Assembly (NCBI RefSeq): GCF_025354735.1
Contig: NZ_JANXMI010000224.1
Span: 1-35,603, forward strand
DNA length: 35,603 bases
DNA from: Rugamonas sp.
Lineage (GTDB): Bacteria; Pseudomonadota; Gammaproteobacteria; Burkholderiales; Burkholderiaceae_D
Direction: 5' to 3'
Positions 2,084 to 25,918 of this stretch are shown one piece after another. Position 1 is the first letter of the stretch; every line of letters starts with the position of its first letter. A program made the translations under genes and the position numbers. The notes below the pieces were generated by a model, which was given only the letters and a program-made list of their open reading frames with translations, did not search any database and was not told where the DNA came from.

Positions 2084-3567
2084 CACCTCGTTATACACAA
2101 CTCAGCTTGCCAACATCCCCATCTCTCGTAGCGTCCTGATCGTCTGAACGGAGACATGAACATCGCTCAGCCCCTTCCAGATCGTCTTCACGCCCGGCTC
2201 TCCATCGCCTTTGCGGGCGAGGAATCCGCCGACGCGCGCGATCATGCGCAGCACCTCATTCAAACGCGGCGCGGGCGGTGGCACGGCCTTGTTGAGCAAG
2301 TAGGCCGCCTTGATTTCATCGGGGTCGAAGAACAGCTGCGCGTCCAGATCCGGGCAGGTGCGTCCCATCCTCATCAGGTGCGCGATGCGCCAGGACACCA
2401 CCAGATACATGGCCAGTGCCCGTTCGATGCGTTCGATCGCCCCCAGTTGCAGCTCCTCGACCTGGCAACCGTTCTTGAGGACATTGAACAGGATCTCGAT
2501 TTCCCAGCGCGCGCGGTACCAGTCGATCAGTTGCGCGACCTCCTCGGCCGTGGTCGCGGCACGGTTGGTGAGCAGGCGCCAGGCTTGACGCCAGCGGGCG
2601 CACCGACCTCGCGCGCCACGATGCAGGTCGCGCCGACGCTCTCGCCTTTGCCGGCCGGCAGTTCGACGTGCCGCGCCCACAGTTGCTGGCGCACGGTGCG
2701 CGCCTTGACGCCCGGCCGCGCCGCCAAGGCGAACTCGATCTCCCCCAGCGCCGCGCCATGCGTCGTGTGCGCCCACAGCGTCGCGCCCTCCGGCAGGCTG
2801 CGGTCATGCGCGGCGCGCACCAGCCAGTTGACCGGATTGCCCAGGTCCTGCGCCCGTTGCATCAGCGGCAGCAGGTCCGCCTCGCGGTCGGCGACATACA
2901 CCAGGCGCGTGCCCGGCATCTGCGACGCCAGTTCGGCCAGCCTTTCATAGCCTTCGATCCAGCGCAGGCTTTCCTTCGACCCGGCGCGTCGCCCCTGCGT
3001 GTCGCGCGCCTCGCGCGCCCACATCCAGGCATCGAGAATACCCAGCGGCTCGCGCGCCGTCGTCACGGCGTAGGTCGGATGCAAGTACATGCCGCGCTGC
3101 GCCTCGTAGCTGAGCGGCCCGAGCCCACGCGCCTGCTGGCCGTTGAAGTTGAGCTCCGTCGTGTCTTGCAGACACAGCACCACCGATTGATCGGCCATGC
3201 GTTGCTCGGTGGCGCGCCAATGCGGCTCGAGGATCGCTTGCCAGTCGACGCTGGCGTTGTCGAAGAACCGATACGCCGCCACCGTCTCGCCCCATCCATC
3301 GCATGCCTTCGGCACGCTGGCCGTAGGTTCGGACGCCATTCTCTCCATCAATATCCTCGCTCGTCGGTTCAGGCGCGCGTCGCCCAGATCGAGGTGTTCA
3401 AATTCCGACTCCGTCCATGCTGCCGATCTGTTTGCCAATTGCGCCACGCAAAAGACGAGAGTAAACGCGATTTCGGCAAAGTTTACAAGGGCATGGCTAA
3501 CTCATTGAATCGAAAGGCGAATTTTTTATGCCCACGGCCAGCAGAGGGACTTGTGTATAACGAGGTG
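2084..3567 (-). mobile_element. IS4-family (IS50/Tn5-like) insertion sequence, complete
   Basis: A 1,484-bp element bounded by perfect 17-bp inverted repeats: CACCTCGTTATACACAA at 2084-2100 and its complement at 3551-3567. The inner part, TTATACACAA, matches the inner part of the IS50 outer end. Identical 9-bp target duplications flank it. It carries one transposase on the minus strand, now frameshifted. Intact ends and duplication indicate a recent insertion with no later rearrangement. Confidence 0.92.
2102..3447 (-). pseudogene. IS4-family transposase, broken by a frameshift
   Basis: The transposase is split between two frames. The first part (3447 to about 2590) has the Tn5-type DNA-binding N-terminus (WTESEFEHLDLGDARLNRR), the first catalytic Asp (CLQDTTELNF) and the second (YVADREADLL). 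The second part (about 2585 to 2102) has the YREK signature Y-x2-R-x3-E-x6-K in WYRARWEIEILFNVLK, with the catalytic Glu, and the usual C-terminus. The frames meet near 2583-2592. There PAGVKP should run into an EWLLLT-like segment (WRLLTNR here), so a small deletion is the simplest cause. Together they give about 448 residues, normal for the subgroup. The start is GTG with no clear ribosome site. Everything else is well preserved, so this is a recent lesion or a sequencing error. Programmed frameshifting is not typical of IS4. Confidence 0.88.
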
Positions 3568-3576
3568 GGTCTAGCA
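3568..3576. repeat. Target-site duplication, right copy
   Basis: This GGTCTAGCA copy abuts the right inverted repeat and is identical to 2075-2083. Confidence 0.9.
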
Positions 3577-3622
3577 GCGACCATTTTTCTTTGTTCTTGA
3601 AACCTAACCCGAGCCCCCACAT

Positions 3623-4042
3623 AAGTCAGTGGTCCCAGCCATACTACCGCAGTTACAACAGCATGCGTCATCGCGTATTTAGCGACTGTCATCAAACCAC
3701 GTAATCGGTTTCTCATACCCATGATGCACCTCATTATTGACTGGCAGCTCTTGGCCGGGAGTGGTCGATCATGGCCGAACGCAGCTGTCGGCCTTCAGGA
3801 TAGCAGCTTGCTCACCTGCAAAACTCACGAATTCTCACTTCGGGCTGAAGCCGCAGCATTGCGGCCGTTAAACAACGCGAAACGCCACCATAAAAATGTT
3901 AGCTAAAGCGTGGAGCACCTCTTTTAAAGAATCGCTCTGCTCTCAATAAAAGCCGCAAACATAGTAGTGAAGTGCTATAGGCTATACGCGCCGCCATGAA
4001 CGGCGGACGTGGCGTTCTGTTTAATCGCGATCCATTGATTTA
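3623..4042. other. Gene-poor stretch right of the insertion sequence
   Basis: About 420 bases hold no supported coding region except the hydrophobic minus-strand frame mentioned for the interrupted ORF. No RNA gene or strong terminator was seen. Confidence 0.4.
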
Positions 4043-4741
4043 TCATTGATGCAACAACCCAAACCCCACGCCCGTGATTGCGACCGCTGTCCCACCAATT
4101 AATGGTATGAGAACTCCGGCAAGTCCCGCTAGCGTTGCGCGCTGCACTCGTCTAAATATGGTCACATCGTAGGCGACGGCAAGCAAGACCAGAAGAATCA
4201 TTCCCGCTATCGCAAATATGGGCGCGGCGGCAAGTCCCAGCCCTATCGCTGGCCAAAATGCGAAACGAGCGAAGGCGGGTCCGATAATTGCCAATGAAGC
4301 GAAGAAGATCAAACGGTGATGGGCGACCCAGCGGTGTCGGAATACTACACCCGCCGTCACAAGGATTACGAAGGATACTAAACTCATGAAGTTGCCCCAG
4401 ACGAACATATTTTCGGGGCTTCGTGCTGATGATATTTGACGCGCAACGTTCAAGTTAACCTGTACTCCACTAGCAATAACGCATGCCACAACAGGAATAA
4501 CGAACCACGCGACTCGGACATGCCACCGGCGCTGCGCCTTTATCATCAACACTCCCTGCAACACAACGATTCCGTACCATGCGCTTAACGCCATCCCATG
4601 CAATAACAATACGAGAGGTAATGGCTGGGTGAGGAACAGGCTGCGCAGATAAAAAGTTCTCCCGAACCCAATCAAGACTATGCATAGAAGAACAAAATGG
4701 GCGAGTAAAAAAATCCTGTTTTCCTTCAGAGGTATCGTCAT
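4043..4741 (-). CDS. Multi-pass membrane protein of unknown function
   Basis: A 232-residue integral membrane protein with about seven hydrophobic segments, beginning with FLLAHFVLLCIVLIGFG. Recognisable features are LHGMALSAWYGIVVLQG, a basic loop with RRWHVRVAW, and WVAHHRLIFFASLAIIGPAFAR. These resemble a widespread uncharacterised proteobacterial membrane family with conserved histidines near helix ends. The start at 4741 (MTIPLKENR) is chosen because GGAG sits six bases upstream; the in-frame ATG at 4798 has no ribosome site. The gene stands alone: the neighbour on its left is the IS zone and the marR gene is divergent. Codon use is less GC-biased than in the genes to the right, which fits a position in the accessory zone. 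Function is unknown. Confidence 0.75.
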   Translation of the reverse strand: MTIPLKENRIFLLAHFVLLCIVLIGFGRTFYLRSLFLTQPLPLVLLLHGMALSAWYGIVVLQGVLMIKAQRRWHVRVAWFVIPVVACVIASGVQVNLNVARQISSARSPENMFVWGNFMSLVSFVILVTAGVVFRHRWVAHHRLIFFASLAIIGPAFARFAFWPAIGLGLAAAPIFAIAGMILLVLLAVAYDVTIFRRVQRATLAGLAGVLIPLIGGTAVAITGVGFGLLHQ

Positions 4742-4908
4742 TGCGGCTCCAAGGTCATTTTCTATTTTATCAATTTGAAAAAGTTTTAATGCCACCATTA
4801 GCTGGCCCGGCCGCTCACCAAATTATTAGCAGGATAACATCTTTTTCGGCCGATGAACCGAGCCATGCGGGCGCAGCGACACGAAACGAGGAATAAGTTA
4901 AATTTTTC

Positions 4909-4951
4909 TTGCCAACTGGGCGAAACGACATATACTTGATTAGTCAAGCAT
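4909..4951 (+). promoter_or_regulatory. marR promoter with overlapping MarR-type operator
   Basis: TTGCCA (4909-4914), a 16-base spacer and TATACT (4931-4936) form a good sigma70-type promoter. The dyad ATACTTGATTAGTCAAGCAT (4932-4951) overlaps the -10. It has the CTTGA-N4-TCAAG form of many MarR-family operators. Repression of the operon by its own first product is the simple reading. The site is 25 bases before the marR start codon. Confidence 0.6.
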
Positions 4952-4973
4952 CTATCAAACACAAGGCAATCAC

Positions 4974-5447
4974 ATGGAACACCGATCCCACATCAGCGGT
5001 ACGGCGCCGATCAGCCCCGGCCTCGACTTCACGCTGCGGCTGGCGCGCGCGCAGGCGGCGACCGTGCGCCGGCTCGACGCCTCGCTCGGCAGCAATTACG
5101 GCATCAGCTTCAGCGACTTCATGCTGCTGTACTACCTCGACCGCGCGCCCGGCGGCCGGCTGCGTCGCGTCGACCTGGCCGAACGCCAGGGGCTGACCGC
5201 GTCCGGCGTCACCCGCACCCTGCTGCCGCTGGAAAAAATCGGCCTGGTCAGCCGCCAGCCCGATCCGCGCGACGCCCGCGTCGGCTACGCGGCCATCACG
5301 GCGACCGGCCAGGAAATGCTCAACAATGCCATGGTGACGGCGCAGCAGATCAGCGCCGACCTGCTGCGCGGCTGCCCGCCGGACCAGGTGGCGGCGATGT
5401 CGGCGCTGCTCGGGCAACTGGCCGGCATGAACTCTTCCAACACCTGA
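4974..5447 (+). CDS. MarR-family transcriptional regulator
   Basis: A 157-residue winged-helix regulator. Helices around residues 15-60 (FTLRLARAQAATVRRLDASLGSNYGISFSDFMLLYYL) form the start of the MarR fold. The recognition helix is LTASGVTRTLLPLEKIGLV, followed by the wing RQPDPRDARVGYAAITATG, which has the D-x-R-D/A-x-R wing signature. MarR dimers usually repress adjacent genes and release DNA on binding small aromatic or phenolic ligands. Here the next gene is an MFS transporter 33 bases downstream. A palindrome over the promoter's -10 suggests the protein controls its own operon. The ligand cannot be read from the sequence. Confidence 0.9.
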   Translation: MEHRSHISGTAPISPGLDFTLRLARAQAATVRRLDASLGSNYGISFSDFMLLYYLDRAPGGRLRRVDLAERQGLTASGVTRTLLPLEKIGLVSRQPDPRDARVGYAAITATGQEMLNNAMVTAQQISADLLRGCPPDQVAAMSALLGQLAGMNSSNT

Positions 5448-5480
5448 CGCAGCCACTCCCAAAAACAGAACGAGGTCACG

Positions 5481-6836
5481 ATGTCCAACGATGTAAAACT
5501 CCAGCGCGCCGCGCTGATGCGCAATCCGAATTTCCGCTGGCTGCTGGGCGGCGGCGTGATCTCGATGCTGGGCGACCAGATGACGATGATCGCCCTGCCC
5601 TGGCTGGTCCTGACGCTGACCCACGATGCGCTGGCGCTCGGCCTGACGATCGCGGTGATGAGCATCCCGCGCGCCGTCTTCATCCTGATCGGCGGCGCGC
5701 TGGTCGACCGCTATTCGCCCAAGCGCGTGCTGATGCTGACCAAGTTCGCCAACGCCGTGCTGCTGGCGATGCTCACCGCGCTGACGCTGAACACCCACCC
5801 CACGCTGACGATGACGCTGGCGATGACGCCGCACGTCACGCTGACCATCCTGTACGCGCTGGCGCTCGGCCTCGGACTGGCGCAAGCCTTCGGCATCCCG
5901 TCGGGCACCTCGATCATGCCGCAGGCGATCGCGCCCGAACACCTGCAAGGCGCCAACGGCATGCTAATGGGCTTGCGCCAGTTGTCGCTGCTGGCCGGCC
6001 CCCTGCTGACGGCGGGGCTGATCGCGCTGGCCGGCGACGGCGGCAACGGCACCGTCGCCAACGCGCGCGGACTGGCGCTGGCATTCGCCTTCGACTGCTT
6101 CAGCTTCCTGCTGTCGGCGTGGACGCTGTCCCACGTCACCGGCCTGCGCACGCCGCCGCGCGCCGACGACCAGGGTGTGCTGCGTTCCATCGGCAGCGGC
6201 TTGAAGATGGTGTGGGACGACCACGCGCTGCGCACCTGCTTCATTTACTGGGGCGTGGTCGCGCTGTTCATCGGCGGCGCCATGCAAGTCGCGCTGCCGG
6301 TGCTGGCCAGCGAACGGCTGCACGGCGCCACCTCGCTAGGCTTGCTGATGGCGGCCAACGGTTGCGGCACCCTGATCGGCATGGCCGCCGCCGCGATGGG
6401 CGGCGCGCGCCTGCGGCTGGCCAGCTTCGGCGCCACGATACTGCTGATCGACGGCCTGGCCGGCCTGCTGCTGATGCCCTTCGGCGCCATCACCGCCGCG
6501 TGGCAGGGATGCCTGCTGCTGCTGACGGTAGGCGTGCTGTCGGGCTTCATGCAGATCGCCGTCTTCACGTGGATACAGCGCCGCGTGCCGCCGCAGATGA
6601 TGGGCCGCGCCATGAGCCTTTTCATGTTCATCTTCATGGGACTGGCGCCGTTGTCGGCCGCCGCCGCCGGCTGGCTGCTGACGCGGCTCACGCTGACGCA
6701 GATGTTTGCCTGCGGCGGCGGCCTGCTGGTGCTGTTCGCGGTCGGCGCCGCGCTGTTCTCGCCGATGCGCCGCATCGCTTATGCCTCGGCGCCGGCCGCG
6801 CCGACCGCCAAGCCATCGAATCGGGAGTCGACATGA
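5481..6836 (+). CDS. MFS transporter, EntS-like drug/metabolite exporter
   Basis: A 451-residue major facilitator protein with about twelve hydrophobic segments. The N-terminal half has RNPNFRWLLGGGVISMLGDQMTMIALPWLVLTLT and then ALVDRYSPKRVL, the motif-A loop between helices 2 and 3. This arrangement is typical of the MFS_3/EntS-like exporter branch. An unusual Thr/Leu/Met-rich stretch follows between helices (about residues 98-118). GAGG upstream supports the ATG at 5481. The gene lies 33 bases after marR and overlaps the next gene by ATGA, so the three are likely one transcript. Export of a toxic or signalling compound sensed by the MarR protein is inferred. The substrate is unknown. Confidence 0.88.
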   Translation: MSNDVKLQRAALMRNPNFRWLLGGGVISMLGDQMTMIALPWLVLTLTHDALALGLTIAVMSIPRAVFILIGGALVDRYSPKRVLMLTKFANAVLLAMLTALTLNTHPTLTMTLAMTPHVTLTILYALALGLGLAQAFGIPSGTSIMPQAIAPEHLQGANGMLMGLRQLSLLAGPLLTAGLIALAGDGGNGTVANARGLALAFAFDCFSFLLSAWTLSHVTGLRTPPRADDQGVLRSIGSGLKMVWDDHALRTCFIYWGVVALFIGGAMQVALPVLASERLHGATSLGLLMAANGCGTLIGMAAAAMGGARLRLASFGATILLIDGLAGLLLMPFGAITAAWQGCLLLLTVGVLSGFMQIAVFTWIQRRVPPQMMGRAMSLFMFIFMGLAPLSAAAAGWLLTRLTLTQMFACGGGLLVLFAVGAALFSPMRRIAYASAPAAPTAKPSNREST

Positions 6837-21175: not shown

Positions 21176-21208
21176 ATAAACGATATAAACGATATAAATT
21201 ATATCGTT
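21176..21208. repeat. AT-rich repeat with a perfect palindrome (ATAAACGAT element, copy 1)
   Basis: Two tandem copies of ATAAACGAT (21176-21184 and 21185-21193) run into a perfect 10-bp inverted repeat, AACGATATAA and TTATATCGTT, separated by one base (21188-21208). A related element lies at 31565-31616. The AT-rich sequence contrasts sharply with its surroundings. Confidence 0.75.
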
Positions 21209-21312: not shown

Positions 21313-21350
21313 ATTTGCAACATTTTTGATTGCAAATTATAATCATTATC
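21313..21350 (+). promoter_or_regulatory. Sigma70-type promoter with overlapping Fur box
   Basis: TTGCAA (21315-21320), a 17-base spacer and TATAAT (21338-21343) form a strong promoter. GCAAATTATAATCATTATC (21332-21350) matches the 19-bp Fur consensus at 16 positions and covers the -10. The dyad ATTTGCAA/TTGCAAAT (21313-21320 and 21330-21337) covers the -35 and spacer and could be a second operator. Occupation by Fur with iron would block transcription, so the downstream genes should be induced by iron starvation. Confidence 0.75.
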
Positions 21351-21394
21351 ATTTGCGATCACTACATGACTCGCACCACCTTTCCTGCCGAGCA

Positions 21395-22612
21395 ATGCAC
21401 ACTTCCTTCGTTACCGTGCCCCGACTGCTCCCCTCCCTTCTGATACTCGCCCTTAGCGCCTGCGGTGGCGGCGGCGGCAATGCGCCCGCCGCCGTCGGCA
21501 CGGCGCCGGTGATCGATGTCGCCCTCAGCCCGGCCGCGCAACTGGGCCAGCAGATTTTCAAGGATGCCTCGCTGTCGGCCTCCGGCAAGCAGTCGTGCGC
21601 CACCTGCCACAATCCGGACCACGCGCACGCGCCGGACAACGCCCTGGCGGCGCAGCTGGGCGGCATCGACGGCGACGTCCAGGGCTTCCGCGCCGCGCCG
21701 TCGTTGCGCTATCTGAACCAGAACACCGCCTTCTTCTTCGCCAAGGACGGCACGCCGACCGGCGGCTTCAATCGCGACGGCCGCGCCGCATCGCTGGCCG
21801 ACCAGGCCGGGGTACCCTTCCTGGCCGCGCACGAAATGGCCAACGCCAGCAAGGCCGACGTGGTCGCGCACCTGAAGAACGCCGGCTACGCCGCGCAATT
21901 CCGCGCGCAGTTCGGCGCCGCGATACTCGACAATCCCGACCAGGCCTTCAGCCGCATCGGCTACGCGCTGCAGCAGTATCAAATGGAAGACCCGGAGTTC
22001 CATCCCTTCGACTCCAGGTACGACGCCTTCCTCGCCGGAAAAACGCCGCTCAGCGCGGCCGAGCTGCGCGGCCTGGCGCTGTACAACAATCCGCTCAAGG
22101 GCAATTGCATCGGCTGCCATACGAGTGCGCGCGGCGCCGACGGCTCGCCGCCGCTGTTCACCGATTTCAGCTTCGACAACCTGGGCGTGCCGCGCAACAG
22201 GAAGCTGTCGGCGAACGCCGATCCGGCCTACTTCGACCTCGGCCTGTGCGGCCCGAACCGCACCGACCTGGCGACGCGCACCGATTTGTGCGGCGCCTTC
22301 CGCGTGCCCAGCCTGCGCAACGTCGCCACCCGCAAAGCCTTCTTCCACAACGGCGCCTTCGACAACCTGAACGACGCGCTGCACTTCTACGTCCAGCGCG
22401 ACACCAAGCCGGAGCTGTGGTATCCGCGCGCCGCCGACGGCAGCGTCGACAAATTCAACGATCTGCCGCCGGCCTATCGCGCCAACGTCAACACGCTGGA
22501 AGTGCCCTACAACCGCCAGCCGGGCATGGAGCCGGCGCTGTCGGACAGCGAAATCGCCGACGTCATCCAATTCCTCGGCACGCTGACCGATGGCTATAAA
22601 ACCACCCCTTAA
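21395..22612 (+). CDS. Di-heme cytochrome c peroxidase/MauG-like lipoprotein
   Basis: A 405-residue lipoprotein. The lipobox LSAC places the lipidated Cys at residue 23, followed by a GGGGG linker. Two CxxCH haem-binding sites are visible: SCATCHN (Cys68-His72) and NCIGCHT (Cys238-His242). The spacing, together with FRVPSLRNVATRKAFFHNGAFDNLNDALHFY near the end, fits the bacterial di-heme peroxidase/MauG superfamily. Whether it reduces peroxide or oxidises a partner protein cannot be told. The start ATG at 21395 fits the signal sequence, although its ribosome site is weak. It is the first gene after the promoter with a Fur box and lies 24 bases before the porin gene. In several bacteria related di-heme enzymes occur in metal-acquisition operons. 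Confidence 0.88.
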   Translation: MHTSFVTVPRLLPSLLILALSACGGGGGNAPAAVGTAPVIDVALSPAAQLGQQIFKDASLSASGKQSCATCHNPDHAHAPDNALAAQLGGIDGDVQGFRAAPSLRYLNQNTAFFFAKDGTPTGGFNRDGRAASLADQAGVPFLAAHEMANASKADVVAHLKNAGYAAQFRAQFGAAILDNPDQAFSRIGYALQQYQMEDPEFHPFDSRYDAFLAGKTPLSAAELRGLALYNNPLKGNCIGCHTSARGADGSPPLFTDFSFDNLGVPRNRKLSANADPAYFDLGLCGPNRTDLATRTDLCGAFRVPSLRNVATRKAFFHNGAFDNLNDALHFYVQRDTKPELWYPRAADGSVDKFNDLPPAYRANVNTLEVPYNRQPGMEPALSDSEIADVIQFLGTLTDGYKTTP

Positions 22613-22636
22613 TTTTTCAGAGCAGAGATAAATAAT

Positions 22637-23953
22637 ATGACCAAGAACCTGATCGCCCTGGCCGTCGCCGCCGCCTTCCTCAGCGTACCGGTGGCCGCCG
22701 GCGCCAGCGAAGCGGAGCTGATGGCGCGCATAGAAAAAATGGCCGCCGAGCTGGAACAGCTCAAGGCCGAACTGAAAGCGAGCGTCAAGAAAACCGACGC
22801 CGTCGAACAGCGCCAGCAAGAACTGGCGGCGGCGCCAGTCATCGCCGCGAGCGCCGCGCCGGCCGTGGCCTCCACCGCGCCGACGTCGAACATCGGCGGC
22901 CCGGCCACCATCTTGAGCGGCTACGGCGAGATCAATTACAACCACCCGACCAAGGCTGCCGGCGACACCCAGGTCGACCTGCGCCGCGCCGTCATCGAGA
23001 TCGAACACCGCTTCGACGAGAAGACCAAGATGTTCTCCGAATTCGAATGGGAGCACGGCGTGGTGTCGGCCGACGACAAGGGCGAGAGCGAAGTCGAACA
23101 GCTCTACATCGAGCGCGAATTCGACAACGGCATGCGCAGCAAGATCGGCCTGTTCCTGATCCCGGCCGGCCTGCTCAACGCCAACCACGAGCCGACCGCG
23201 TACTACGGCGTCGAGCGCAACTTCGTCGAGACGGCGATCATCCCGTCGACCTGGCGCGAAGTCGGCGTCAGCCTGTCGGGCGACACCGCCGGCGGCGTGA
23301 CGTGGGACACCGGCCTCACCAACGGTTTTAATCTCAGCAAGTGGGACGCCGCCTCCACCGACGGCCGCGACTCGCCGCTCGGCGCCATCCACCAGGAAGG
23401 CCAGCAAGCGAAGGCGCGCGACCTGAGCGTGCACGCGGCGCTGAACTGGCGCGGCATCCCCGGCCTGCTGGTCGGCGGCTCGGTCTTCACCGGCAAGGTC
23501 GGACAGAAGCAGCCGGACTTCGCCGCCCAGGATGCGCGCGTGACGCTGTACGACCTGCACACCCGCTACACGCCGGGCCACTGGGACTTGTCGGCGCTGT
23601 AAGCGCGCGGCCAGATCAGCAACACCGCAGCGTTCAACGAAACGCTGGTCGGCAATCCGACGCTGGTGCCGCACACCTTCGCCGGCTGGTACGCGCAGGC
23701 CGCCTATCAGGTGCTGAAAACGGGCGACTTCACGCTCAGTCCTTTCGTGCGCTACGAGCAGTTCAACACCGCCAAGAGCTACGCGACGCTGCCCCAGGGC
23801 CTTACCCCGGCCACGGCGCCGGATGAAAAAGTGACGACCGTCGGCGCCAATCTGCGCGTTGGCGAGGGCGTGGTGCTCAAGGCCGACTACCAGAAATTCA
23901 CCGAGGACAAAACGCGCGACCGCGTCAACCTCGGCATGGGCTTCGCTTACTGA
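22637..23953 (+). pseudogene. Outer-membrane porin, interrupted by one in-frame stop
   Basis: A porin of about 438 residues whose frame is uninterrupted except for TAA at 23600-23602 (codon 322). The two halves are in the same phase. A signal peptide (LIALAVAAAFLSVPVAAGA) is followed by a coiled coil (LMARIEKMAAELEQLKAELKAS) as in OprP/OprO-like and trimeric porins. Then comes a beta-barrel with ILSGYGEINYN and MFSEFEWEHG. The end is the typical NLGMGFAY. Around the stop, HWDLSAL-stop-ARGQISNT expects Tyr (LYARG is a common porin strand), so one base change from TAC or TAT explains it. Truncation would remove the last strands and the C-terminal assembly signal. It may be a sequencing error, a recent loss, or read-through. 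TAA is a poor read-through context. Confidence 0.85.
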
Positions 23954-24489
23954 TGCTGCGTTATCGACCCTACCTGGCATGGGCCGTCGGCGCGGCCTGC
24001 GCGCCCGCCTTCGCCACCCAGTACATGAACGCGGAGCAGGCGCAGAAGCTGATCTTCCCCGACGCGACGGCGTTCCGCGTGCAGGACCTGGCGCTAAACG
24101 CGGCGCAGATGAAGCAGGTCGAAGCGCTGGCCGGCCTGCCCGCGCGCTCGGTCAACTGGCACGTGGTCGGCGCCTACCGCGACGAGGCGCTGCTCGGCTA
24201 CTTGGTGCTCGACGACGTGGTCGGCAAATACGAGTTGATCTCGTACGCGGTCGGCGTCAACCCCGACGCCAGCGTGCGCCAGATCGAGATCCTGGTCTAC
24301 CGCGAAAGCCACGGCGGCGAAATCCGCACGCCGGCGTGGCGTCGCCAGTTCGCCGGCAAGAGCGCGCCGGCCGGGCTGACGATAGGCGACGGCGTCACCA
24401 ACATCAGCGGCGCGACCATGTCGTGCACCCACCTGACCGACGGCGTGCGGCGCATCGCGGCCATCGCCCAGGTGGCGCTGAAAAAATGA
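23953..24489 (+). CDS. Exported FMN-binding (flavinylated) domain protein
   Basis: A 178-residue protein with an N-terminal signal segment (LAWAVGAACAPAFA) and an FMN-binding domain. The hallmark is NISGATMSC near residues 150-158. In the family the Thr of SGAT (here Thr155, bases 24415-24417) receives FMN through a phosphoester bond made by ApbE. The upstream region (VGAYRDEALLGYLVLDDVVGKYELISYAVGVNPDASVRQIEIL) fits the known fold of NqrC/RnfG-type domains. It overlaps the porin stop by one base and the next gene by ATGA. With ApbE directly downstream, the motif strongly implies a flavinylated periplasmic electron carrier. Confidence 0.88.
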   Translation: MLRYRPYLAWAVGAACAPAFATQYMNAEQAQKLIFPDATAFRVQDLALNAAQMKQVEALAGLPARSVNWHVVGAYRDEALLGYLVLDDVVGKYELISYAVGVNPDASVRQIEILVYRESHGGEIRTPAWRRQFAGKSAPAGLTIGDGVTNISGATMSCTHLTDGVRRIAAIAQVALKK

Positions 24490-25421
24490 TGCGCCGCGCC
24501 CAACCATGGCTGGGCACCCTGGTCGAGATGTCGGTGGCGGACGCGCTGCCGGAACGCGCACTGTACGCGGCCATCGCCGGCGCCTACGCCGAGGTGGCGC
24601 TGGTGCAGCGGCTGATGAGTTTTCACGACGCCGCCAGCGACGTCTCGCGCCTGAACCGCGCCGCGCCCGGCGCGCGGCTGACGGTGCACGTCCACACGTG
24701 GCGGGTGCTGCGCCTGGCGCAGCAGGTGGCGGCGGCGTCGGACGGCATCTTCAACATCGCCTGCGCACCGCAACTGGTGACGTGGGGCTGCCTGCCGGCG
24801 CCGCCGATGCCGCCGATGCCGCCGTTGCAGCGTTTGCGGCAAACGGCGGAGCGGCGGCCATCGTCCGCATCGCCGTCGGTGCAAGCGATGCAAGCGGCGC
24901 GGCCGGCGCAGTCGCCATCCCCTCCCGCCTACGATCCCGGCCTGGCCTTGCTGGACCTTGAAGATGGCTGCGGCGTGCGCAAACTGGCGCCGGGCTGGAT
25001 AGACCTGGGCGGTATCGCCAAAGGCTACGCGGTCGACCTGGCCATCGCCGCGCTGCGCGACGCGGGCGTCGCCAGCGCCTGCGTCAACGCCGGCGGCGAC
25101 CTGCGCGCGCTCGGCGAGGCGGCTTGGCCGGTGGCGGTCCGCGATCCGCGCGCGCCGCGCCGCGCCGGCGCCCAGCTGCATGTGCGGGACGAGGCGATGG
25201 CCACGTCGGCCCATTATTTTTCGGCCCGGCGCCACGCCGGTGTCGACGTCAGCGCCCTGGTCGACGGCCGCGACGGCCGGCCGGTGGCGGGCCAGGCCAG
25301 CGTCTCCGTGCGCGCCGCCAGCTGCGCCGTGGCCGACGCGCTGACCAAGGTCGTCATCGCCAGCGGCGACCCGCATCATCGGGCATTGCGCGCCATGGCC
25401 GCATCTGCGATGATTCTATGA
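24486..25421 (+). CDS. apbE: ApbE-like FAD:protein FMN transferase
   Basis: A 311-residue flavin transferase. Typical elements are a MGTLVEM-like opening (WLGTLVEMSV), FHDAASDVSRLNR, the DLGGIAKGYAVDLAIAALRDAG motif, CVNAGGDLRALG, and SCAVADALTKVVIASGD, whose Asp coordinates magnesium. Two oddities stand out. A Pro/Gln/Ser-rich insertion (about residues 102-148) interrupts the middle. The usual H-I-x-D/N-P-x-T-G motif is degenerate (SALVDGRDGRPV). No lipobox or signal peptide is seen, so export to the periplasm is unproven. It overlaps the FMN-binding gene by ATGA and the next gene likewise, indicating coupled translation and a dedicated maturation enzyme for its neighbour. Confidence 0.88.
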   Translation: MMRRAQPWLGTLVEMSVADALPERALYAAIAGAYAEVALVQRLMSFHDAASDVSRLNRAAPGARLTVHVHTWRVLRLAQQVAAASDGIFNIACAPQLVTWGCLPAPPMPPMPPLQRLRQTAERRPSSASPSVQAMQAARPAQSPSPPAYDPGLALLDLEDGCGVRKLAPGWIDLGGIAKGYAVDLAIAALRDAGVASACVNAGGDLRALGEAAWPVAVRDPRAPRRAGAQLHVRDEAMATSAHYFSARRHAGVDVSALVDGRDGRPVAGQASVSVRAASCAVADALTKVVIASGDPHHRALRAMAASAMIL

Positions 25422-25918
25422 ACATGCCCAACCTTCATCAACCCCTCCTTAGGCCGCCGGCGCAGCTGCACGTGAACCTGCGCGTCGAGCGCTGGCACCG
25501 GCGCTGGATTTACGCCAGCGCCGCGGTGCTGCTGCTGAGCGGCTCGGCGTGGCTGGTGGCGCGCTACTTTCTGCGCCCGGCCGGCCAGTTCGGCGAAACC
25601 GTCCACCCGCTCGAACCGTGGGCCATGAAGCTGCACGGCGCCGCCGCGATGGCGATGCTGTTCTTCCTCGGCAGCCTGCTCAACGTCCATGTCCGGCGCG
25701 CCATCCGGGCCGGCCGCAACCTGGTCTCCGGCTGGGCCATGATCGCGGCGATGGCCGTGCTGACGGCCACCGGCTTCGGCCTGTACTACCTGGCCGGCGA
25801 GAGCGACCGGCCGCTGTGGTCCGCGCTGCACTGGGTGGTCGGCCTGGCCGCCGGCGCCCTGTTCGTGCTGCACGTCCAACTGGGCCGCCGGCGCGCCCGT
25901 TCCGCCGACGACGCCTGA
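25418..25918 (+). CDS. Four-helix membrane protein with several membrane-adjacent histidines (DUF4405/cytochrome b-like)
   Basis: A 166-residue membrane protein. Helices are visible at WIYASAAVLLLSGSAWLVARYF, AMKLHGAAAMAMLFFLGSLLNVHV, GWAMIAAMAVLTATGFGLYYL and WSALHWVVGLAAGALFVLHVQLG. His residues lie in KLHGAAAM, LNVHVRR, ALHWVVG and VLHVQLG, a pairing that could ligate two haems b as in cytochrome b561/DUF4405-like proteins. The ATG at 25418 overlaps the apbE stop (ATGA). As the last gene of a group with an FMN-binding protein and ApbE, it is the plausible quinol-side electron donor, or the acceptor. Haem binding is inferred from the histidine placement. Confidence 0.7.
   Translation: MNMPNLHQPLLRPPAQLHVNLRVERWHRRWIYASAAVLLLSGSAWLVARYFLRPAGQFGETVHPLEPWAMKLHGAAAMAMLFFLGSLLNVHVRRAIRAGRNLVSGWAMIAAMAVLTATGFGLYYLAGESDRPLWSALHWVVGLAAGALFVLHVQLGRRRARSADDA

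Follow-up and report, generated by a model that had tools for sequence, protein, structure and literature searches.

The 35,603-nucleotide contig NZ_JANXMI010000224.1 of Rugamonas sp. (assembly GCF_025354735.1), which was analysed as a whole and is called the window below, carries a + strand operon of five genes encoding a di-haem lipoprotein, a porin, an exported flavin mononucleotide (FMN)-binding protein, the FMN transferase ApbE and a four-helix membrane protein. This cassette would represent a new form of flavinylation-based extracytosolic electron transfer, assembled from parts of a published kind. Judged from its sequence, we give an even chance to the reading that it is a Fur-repressed envelope redox cassette, induced by iron starvation and most likely serving ferric reduction.

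In the mechanism that we propose, the membrane protein (gene 5) would act as a b-type cytochrome, taking electrons probably from quinol and delivering them to the FMN carrier in the periplasm (gene 3), flavinylated at Thr155 by ApbE (gene 4). The carrier would hand them on to the di-haem lipoprotein (gene 1), anchored at the outer membrane, which would act on a small substrate let in by the porin (gene 2). This substrate would most likely be a ferric complex, whose reduction would free usable iron, and the di-haem protein could also clear hydrogen peroxide (H2O2) arising from the ferric chemistry.

A Fur-type box ahead of the operon and its relatives

A sigma-70-type promoter, TTGCAA-17-TATAAT (21315..21343, + strand), is proposed upstream of gene 1 as a consensus match only, agreeing at 10 of 12 positions; promoter-like matches in 7 kb numbered five (two of them one site in two registers), against a mean of 0.9 after shuffling. 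Its -10 element (21338-21343) lies inside the Fur-type box GCAAATTATAATCATTATC (21332..21350, + strand), which scores 16/19 against the Fur consensus. An original prediction, made from the DNA letters alone, had placed the -10 within a 16/19 Fur box, and both this overlap and the match count were reproduced. The intergenic spacings are 24, -1, -4 and -4 bases, provided that the porin is read through to its last stop; the gene order and spacings of that prediction stood, and a TAA in the porin frame at 23600-23602 had been overlooked.

The draft assembly (334 contigs, 5.757 Mb, 95.4% complete) holds only four places that fit the Fur consensus with at most three mismatches (five rows, one place being matched on both strands), and a reversed control pattern gave none. 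The other three lie at a PepSY-DUF2271-DUF4198-ApbE-flavodoxin-type reductase cluster, at a TonB-receptor plug gene and at an Nramp gene. The best of all (17/19; contig C148, locus L173) stands between the PepSY-DUF2271-DUF4198-ApbE cluster and a divergent pyridoxamine-oxidase-like gene. According to PMC8238504, PepSY flavinylation clusters are under Fur repression in two species and have a connection with iron reduction. Both ApbE genes found in the assembly (2/2) belong to clusters behind Fur boxes. The operon would add a second architecture, beside the PepSY clusters, to the link between flavinylation and iron.

In relatives, a region beginning 300 bases before the di-haem gene and reaching 60 bases into it was compared with other 360-base segments of the same locus, the box score being the fraction of other segments at least as good. 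Twenty-five loci with di-haem and porin genes were scored, namely the window, L025-L040, L072-L077, L092 and L118 (gene starts being approximate in L072-L077, L092 and L118); L119-L121 (same contigs as L035, L033 and L034), L041 (without a porin) and the 3.5-kb loci L006-L024 were excluded. These loci are related and not independent, and the di-haem proteins of L034/L037 and of L073/L074 are identical or near-identical. The upstream box beats every other sampled segment in 20 of the 25 loci and scores at or below 0.05 in 22, with borderline values in L075 (0.032) and L077 (0.027). L041, which holds the di-haem gene alone, scored 0.000 among only 48 segments. The cassette is probably Fur-controlled.

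Fur control might also mirror oxygen or general redox status, the operon being a respiratory or detoxifying reductase for some other small molecule. Flavinylated carriers feed many reductases (sections of PMC8238504), and expression of bthA, the gene of a related di-haem enzyme discussed below, rises in anaerobic growth (parts of PMC6405878). The conservation of the box and the fact that genes of iron transport accompany others of the four best boxes in the assembly speak against such a role, which we regard as quite improbable.

Conservation of the cassette and its modules

The order di-haem gene, porin, FMN-binding protein, ApbE and membrane protein was found in 13/13 named loci (L025-L037), and further Burkholderiales, Duganella and Rugamonas among them, carry the cassette; L038 stops within the porin. 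The original prediction had proposed a search for this synteny with Fur boxes in related genomes. The box is indeed kept ahead of the cassette across genera, and the gene order is not peculiar to this strain. Among 40 loci around BthA-like genes of the order, seven hold all five genes (L072-L077, L092), and in the other 33, one of them the paralogue of the window's genome, none of the remaining four genes was found in the stretch fetched. A close relative of the FMN-binding protein (E below 1e-80) is present in 11 of 36 genus genomes and a distant one in two more, so that the distribution of the cassette is patchy. Moreover, none of the window's flanking genes is shared with 16 named loci (>45% identity, >50% coverage, in the stretches examined), which indicates that the five genes form a self-contained unit. 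A midpoint-rooted tree of 58 di-haem proteins was built by a quick search; in it, one group with a Shimodaira-Hasegawa-like approximate likelihood ratio test (SH-aLRT) value of 94 is cassette-bearing in 23 of its 25 rows; the two others are the long branch L102 and the fragment L089, and L092 sits in another group.

Of 25 loci read, 11 (L112-L115, L152-L158) have the last three genes, a trio of FMN-binding protein, ApbE and membrane protein, and nothing that the di-haem model matches; a porin accompanies the trio in two of them (L156, L158). In L154, from another gammaproteobacterial genome, the genes imelysin-DHOR-imelysin-DUF1513-DUF6662 are followed by the trio and then by efflux-type genes. 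Eight (L159-L166) of 47 weaker FMN matches were examined: a porin relative lies upstream in all eight, a PepSY membrane protein comes next in six, and the next membrane protein of L160 and L164 has no Pfam match. The wider theme looks like a porin, a flavoprotein and a membrane protein, with the di-haem enzyme as one of several ends.

Two side observations concern these loci. A DUF6662 protein is encoded upstream of the trio in L115, L154, L155 and L156 (Pfam) and in L157; the family was found in 5 of 369 class genomes, in four of the five adjoining this FMN gene or within 1.6 kb of it. This beta-barrel-like family is linked to that of the FMN-binding protein, for which it may serve as a partner in the outer membrane. 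In L164, a BthA-like di-haem gene (3157-4347, - strand) is divergent from the porin gene (4410-6086, + strand) that precedes the FMN-binding gene, so that like components are arranged in another way.

The di-haem lipoprotein resembles BthA

Gene 1 (21395..22612, + strand) encodes a di-haem c-type peroxidase-like lipoprotein of the BthA/MauG-like kind (CCP_MauG, 112.6 bits in Pfam), the N-terminus of which carries a lipobox-like LSAC followed by Gly. Alignment places its CXXCH haem-binding motifs at residues 68-72 (21596..21610, + strand) and 238-242 (22106..22120, + strand), and Tyr332 (codon at 22388..22390, + strand) aligns with the haem-ligand Tyr463 of BthA and the corresponding Tyr of MauG. 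H72, H242, Y332, E147, C285 and C299 are invariant in 12/12 aligned di-haem proteins. The closest solved structures, 6nx0 and 6v59 (E 7.5e-79 for 6nx0), bear no more specific title than di-haem cytochrome c peroxidase family protein; they are probably BthA, because six residues named in PMC6405878 fit the 6nx0 chain at a constant offset of 66 (Tyr463, Glu277, Ser257, Lys444, Cys415 and Cys430 fall on Tyr, Glu, Ser, Lys, Cys and Cys). Mapped by hand, Tyr463, Glu277, Cys415 and Cys430 of BthA correspond to Tyr332, Glu147, Cys285 and Cys299 of the window protein. Where BthA has Ser257 between the haems, the window protein has Arg127, and aligned relatives show Arg, His, Trp or Leu.

The main rival to ferric reduction arises here: the operon may be a periplasmic peroxidase system in which the flavin chain donates to the BthA-like enzyme, H2O2 is turned into water and induction sets in under iron starvation, when iron-dependent catalases fail. 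Supplied with electrons from outside, BthA is efficient in H2O2 turnover (as described in PMC6405878), and its catalytic Glu (Glu147), its Tyr (Tyr332) and its Cys pair (Cys285/Cys299) are all kept in the window protein. Two c-haems and a haem-b cytochrome would, however, be costly under iron starvation, a porin would be unnecessary, and the 11 trio loci do without a match to the di-haem model. We therefore judge a dedicated peroxidase to be unlikely, if still deserving of serious attention.

The same enzyme could instead carry out oxidative modification of a protein or ligand, with high-valent iron as in MauG and MbnH modifying the porin or a chelator and the flavin chain resetting the enzyme. 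The Tyr at the haem-ligand position is that of MauG and BthA, the MbnH and MauG models are matched at scores far short of the curated thresholds (90 against 363 and 87 against 444 bits, respectively), and the genes of enzyme and porin adjoin each other in the 25 cassette loci, a set selected for the presence of the two. MauG-type chemistry, however, uses oxidising equivalents and would have no obvious need of a reductant chain, and where MauG has its inter-haem Trp, the window protein and its relatives in the Oxalobacteraceae have Arg. Such a function seems improbable to us.

The assembly's second BthA-like di-haem gene (L176, contig C207) adjoins a phosphoesterase gene, which resembles the context of bthA, itself next to a putative phosphatase gene (PMC6405878). 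The enzyme of the window thus has a different set of partners.

Membrane protein, flavin carrier and ApbE

The four-helix membrane protein of gene 5 (25418..25918, + strand) is DUF4405/cytochrome b561-like. DUF4405 (PF14358) matches 11/11 members at E<=0.01, the window protein reaching 25.2 bits at a cut-off of 26.7. Its AlphaFold2 model has four helices (predicted local distance difference test, pLDDT, 75), and fold comparison gave weak matches. His 27, 73, 91, 138 and 152 are invariant in 11/11 members; in the model, the outer side would carry His73 and His138, and the inner side His152 with either His27 or His91, an assignment based on an N-in topology inferred from charges. FdnI-like di-haem b cytochromes arrange their His likewise on outer and inner sides. 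The protein has the marks of a haem-b electron carrier and would be expected to bind haem b, as does a DUF4405 protein clustered with apbE in passages of PMC11334425.

Gene 3 (23953..24489, + strand) encodes an exported protein that matches FMN_bind (27.3 bits, cut-off 22, in Pfam); no second FMN_bind match was found in the assembly. Its SGAT motif (24406..24417, + strand), invariant in 10/10 aligned proteins, contains the predicted flavinylation site Thr155, which ApbE would modify. Gene 4 (24486..25421, + strand), which overlaps both neighbours, encodes this ApbE (167.4 bits). The Pfam matches to CCP_MauG, FMN_bind and ApbE and the presence of SGAT bear out the original prediction.

The ApbE domain begins at residue 9 and leaves no room for a signal peptide; the start lies within about 15 residues of the domain in 15/15 sequences (the window included, L039 left out). 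Export signals were judged from the start of the domain; a hydrophobicity score did not separate the compared groups. The second ApbE of the assembly (L173:4132-5202) has 28 residues ahead of the domain with no obvious hydrophobic run. As a side observation, both ApbE proteins are without a visible signal peptide, while their likely substrates carry one. The definition of a flavinylation cluster asks for a signal in only one target gene (PMC8238504).

The porin and its premature stop

Read to its last stop, the porin gene spans 22637..23953 (+ strand). An in-frame TAA after residue 321 (23600..23602, + strand) ends an N-terminal part of 321 residues (22637..23602, + strand) that comprises a signal-like leader, a helix and about the first 10-11 of 16 strands; the remaining 116 residues of the frame (23603..23953, + strand) show the same degree of conservation as those ahead of it. 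The TAA site is a sense codon in all 29 other aligned rows, some of which are the same contig fetched twice: Tyr in 26, Phe in L017 and Ile in L036 and L040. Against 9/9 relatives, the ratio of nonsynonymous to synonymous substitution rates (dN/dS) is about 0.18-0.36 after the stop, no higher than the values of about 0.23-0.55 before it; against L025, dN is 0.122 and dS 0.341 before the stop, and 0.137 and 0.380 after it. The low dN/dS on either side points to a stop of recent origin or to an error in the draft of 334 contigs. In a model of the intact porin of L025 (pLDDT 77), 16 strands, counted with one 3-residue strand merged with its neighbour, follow an N-terminal helix (25-64), and the top-ranking PDB structures are general porins of 16 strands and OprP/OprO. 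The TAA falls in the eleventh strand of this model, and the predicted product would be without strands 12-16.

The stop probably cripples the porin part of the cassette in this strain, unless it is a sequencing error. One may ask whether the whole operon is decaying into a pseudo-operon here, or whether the stop is an assembly error and nothing more. The TAA is found only here among the compared rows and the assembly is a draft; as dN/dS is not raised after the stop and genes 3-5 are open, long-standing decay is not indicated, and a recent mutation and an error would look alike. We consider this account very improbable. The suggestion in the original prediction that electrons might pass through the porin was not borne out, given the 16-strand general-porin barrel modelled for a relative and the premature stop in the gene itself; on the strength of the model, electron passage through it is unlikely.

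Weighing ferric reduction

Several findings weigh against an iron-reducing role. The operon contains no iron transporter or receptor, and for BthA, the closest studied enzyme, H2O2 turnover is reported and iron reduction is not described in the relevant passages of PMC6405878. ApbE has no visible signal peptide though its FMN-binding substrate has one, and in L039 and L040 the first four genes are present and the fifth is not recognisable. The box on contig C148 could also serve the divergent pyridoxamine-oxidase-like gene. A convincing box is missing in 3 of the 25 di-haem and porin loci (L038 0.125, L039 0.390, L076 0.252). The link to imelysin is confined to L154, where the box score of 0.161 is not significant, and no second case was seen in 75 related genomes; imelysin (M75) had 0 matches in the window's genome, and 4/14 control genomes were positive. 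Finally, nine of the 11 trio loci lacking a di-haem match were scored with assumed starts (L152 and L153 were left unscored), and every value exceeded 0.05: L112 0.350, L113 0.763, L114 0.724, L115 0.070, L155 0.237, L157 0.871 and L158 0.643, with two values each for L154 (0.161 and 0.464) and L156 (0.179 and 0.590). The box thus belongs to the di-haem/porin form and not to the trio as such. The loci with porin and FMN-binding genes, again with assumed starts, scored 0.000 (L159), 0.058 (L160), 0.215 (L161), 0.114 (L162), 0.054 (L163), 0.136 (L165), 0.055 (L166) and 0.854 (L116), L117 and L164 being unscored.

A broader proposal is that the cassette represents the missing physiological partner set of BthA/MauG-like enzymes: a quinol-fed, covalently flavinylated carrier would be the natural donor, the Tyr-ligated di-haem enzyme would work at the outer membrane on iron complexes entering by a dedicated porin, and the haem end would be a swappable module (CCP_MauG here, DHOR and imelysin in L154) on a common flavin trio. 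We rate it as rather unlikely, the more so as trio loci without the di-haem/porin pair have no significant Fur box. If true, flavin-driven di-haem enzymes would be a general, unrecognised route of iron mobilization.

Relation to known systems

In titles and abstract openings, a literature search found no paper with this five-gene set. This agrees with the statement in the original prediction that no characterized operon is known to have exactly these genes, with the qualification that the parts are of a published kind (PMC8238504, PMC11334425). DUF4405, porin and peroxidase have no occurrence in the main text of PMC8238504, nor do porin and peroxidase occur in PMC11334425.

With the PepSY-DUF2271-ApbE clusters described in PMC8238504, the cassette shares Fur control (reported there for two species, probable here), an exported ApbE substrate, a membrane electron-transfer protein and ApbE; it differs in having an FMN_bind substrate and a DUF4405-like membrane protein, plus the di-haem lipoprotein and the porin. 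It resembles the apbE-associated DUF4405 cytochromes in its DUF4405-type match, conserved His and apbE neighbour (sections of PMC11334425). Those cytochromes are described there as six-helix proteins, often with flavodoxin partners, whereas gene 5 encodes four helices and falls under the Pfam cut-off, and the cassette adds the porin and the di-haem lipoprotein. BthA and its Cluster IIIb are alike in two CXXCH motifs, the Tyr haem ligand, the catalytic Glu and the disulfide Cys pair; in passages of PMC6405878, BthA has an inter-haem Ser and a phosphatase neighbour, in contrast to Arg127 and a flavin operon with no phosphatase in the window. Imelysin-DHOR operons of P. aeruginosa are Fur-regulated and implicated in iron uptake (PMC3143127). 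They and EfeUOB share with the cassette a di-haem peroxidase-like protein in an iron-regulated envelope system, and in L154 such genes are joined to the same trio; the cassette has CCP_MauG instead of DHOR, and no imelysin was found in the window's genome.

The function of BthA is stated as not yet discovered (PMC6405878), and the apbE-linked DUF4405 cytochromes have no assigned substrate in the passages of PMC11334425. A compact Fur-boxed operon that unites relatives of both in named Duganella and Rugamonas strains would make the two functions testable by simple deletions.

The porin-FMN-PepSY sets (L159, L161-L163, L165, L166) likewise have a related porin upstream of FMN_bind, followed by a membrane protein, which is PepSY in place of the DUF4405-like protein, and no ApbE match was found in the set. 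MtrCAB comprises an inner-membrane haem donor, a periplasmic carrier, a barrel and a haem lipoprotein, and its barrel of about 26 strands holds the carrier. The cassette is similar in these four parts, but its porin is of the 16-strand diffusion type and one flavin replaces the multihaem carrier.

Other features of the region

Upstream of the promoter, a perfect 21-base palindrome, AACGATATAAATTATATCGTT (21188-21208), has no counterpart elsewhere in the window among palindromes with arms of at least 10 bases and a loop of at most 3; it was not found upstream in 16 named relatives. An open frame of 872 residues (21362-23980) runs on the - strand, antisense to genes 1 and 2, and is probably a by-product of high G+C codon use.

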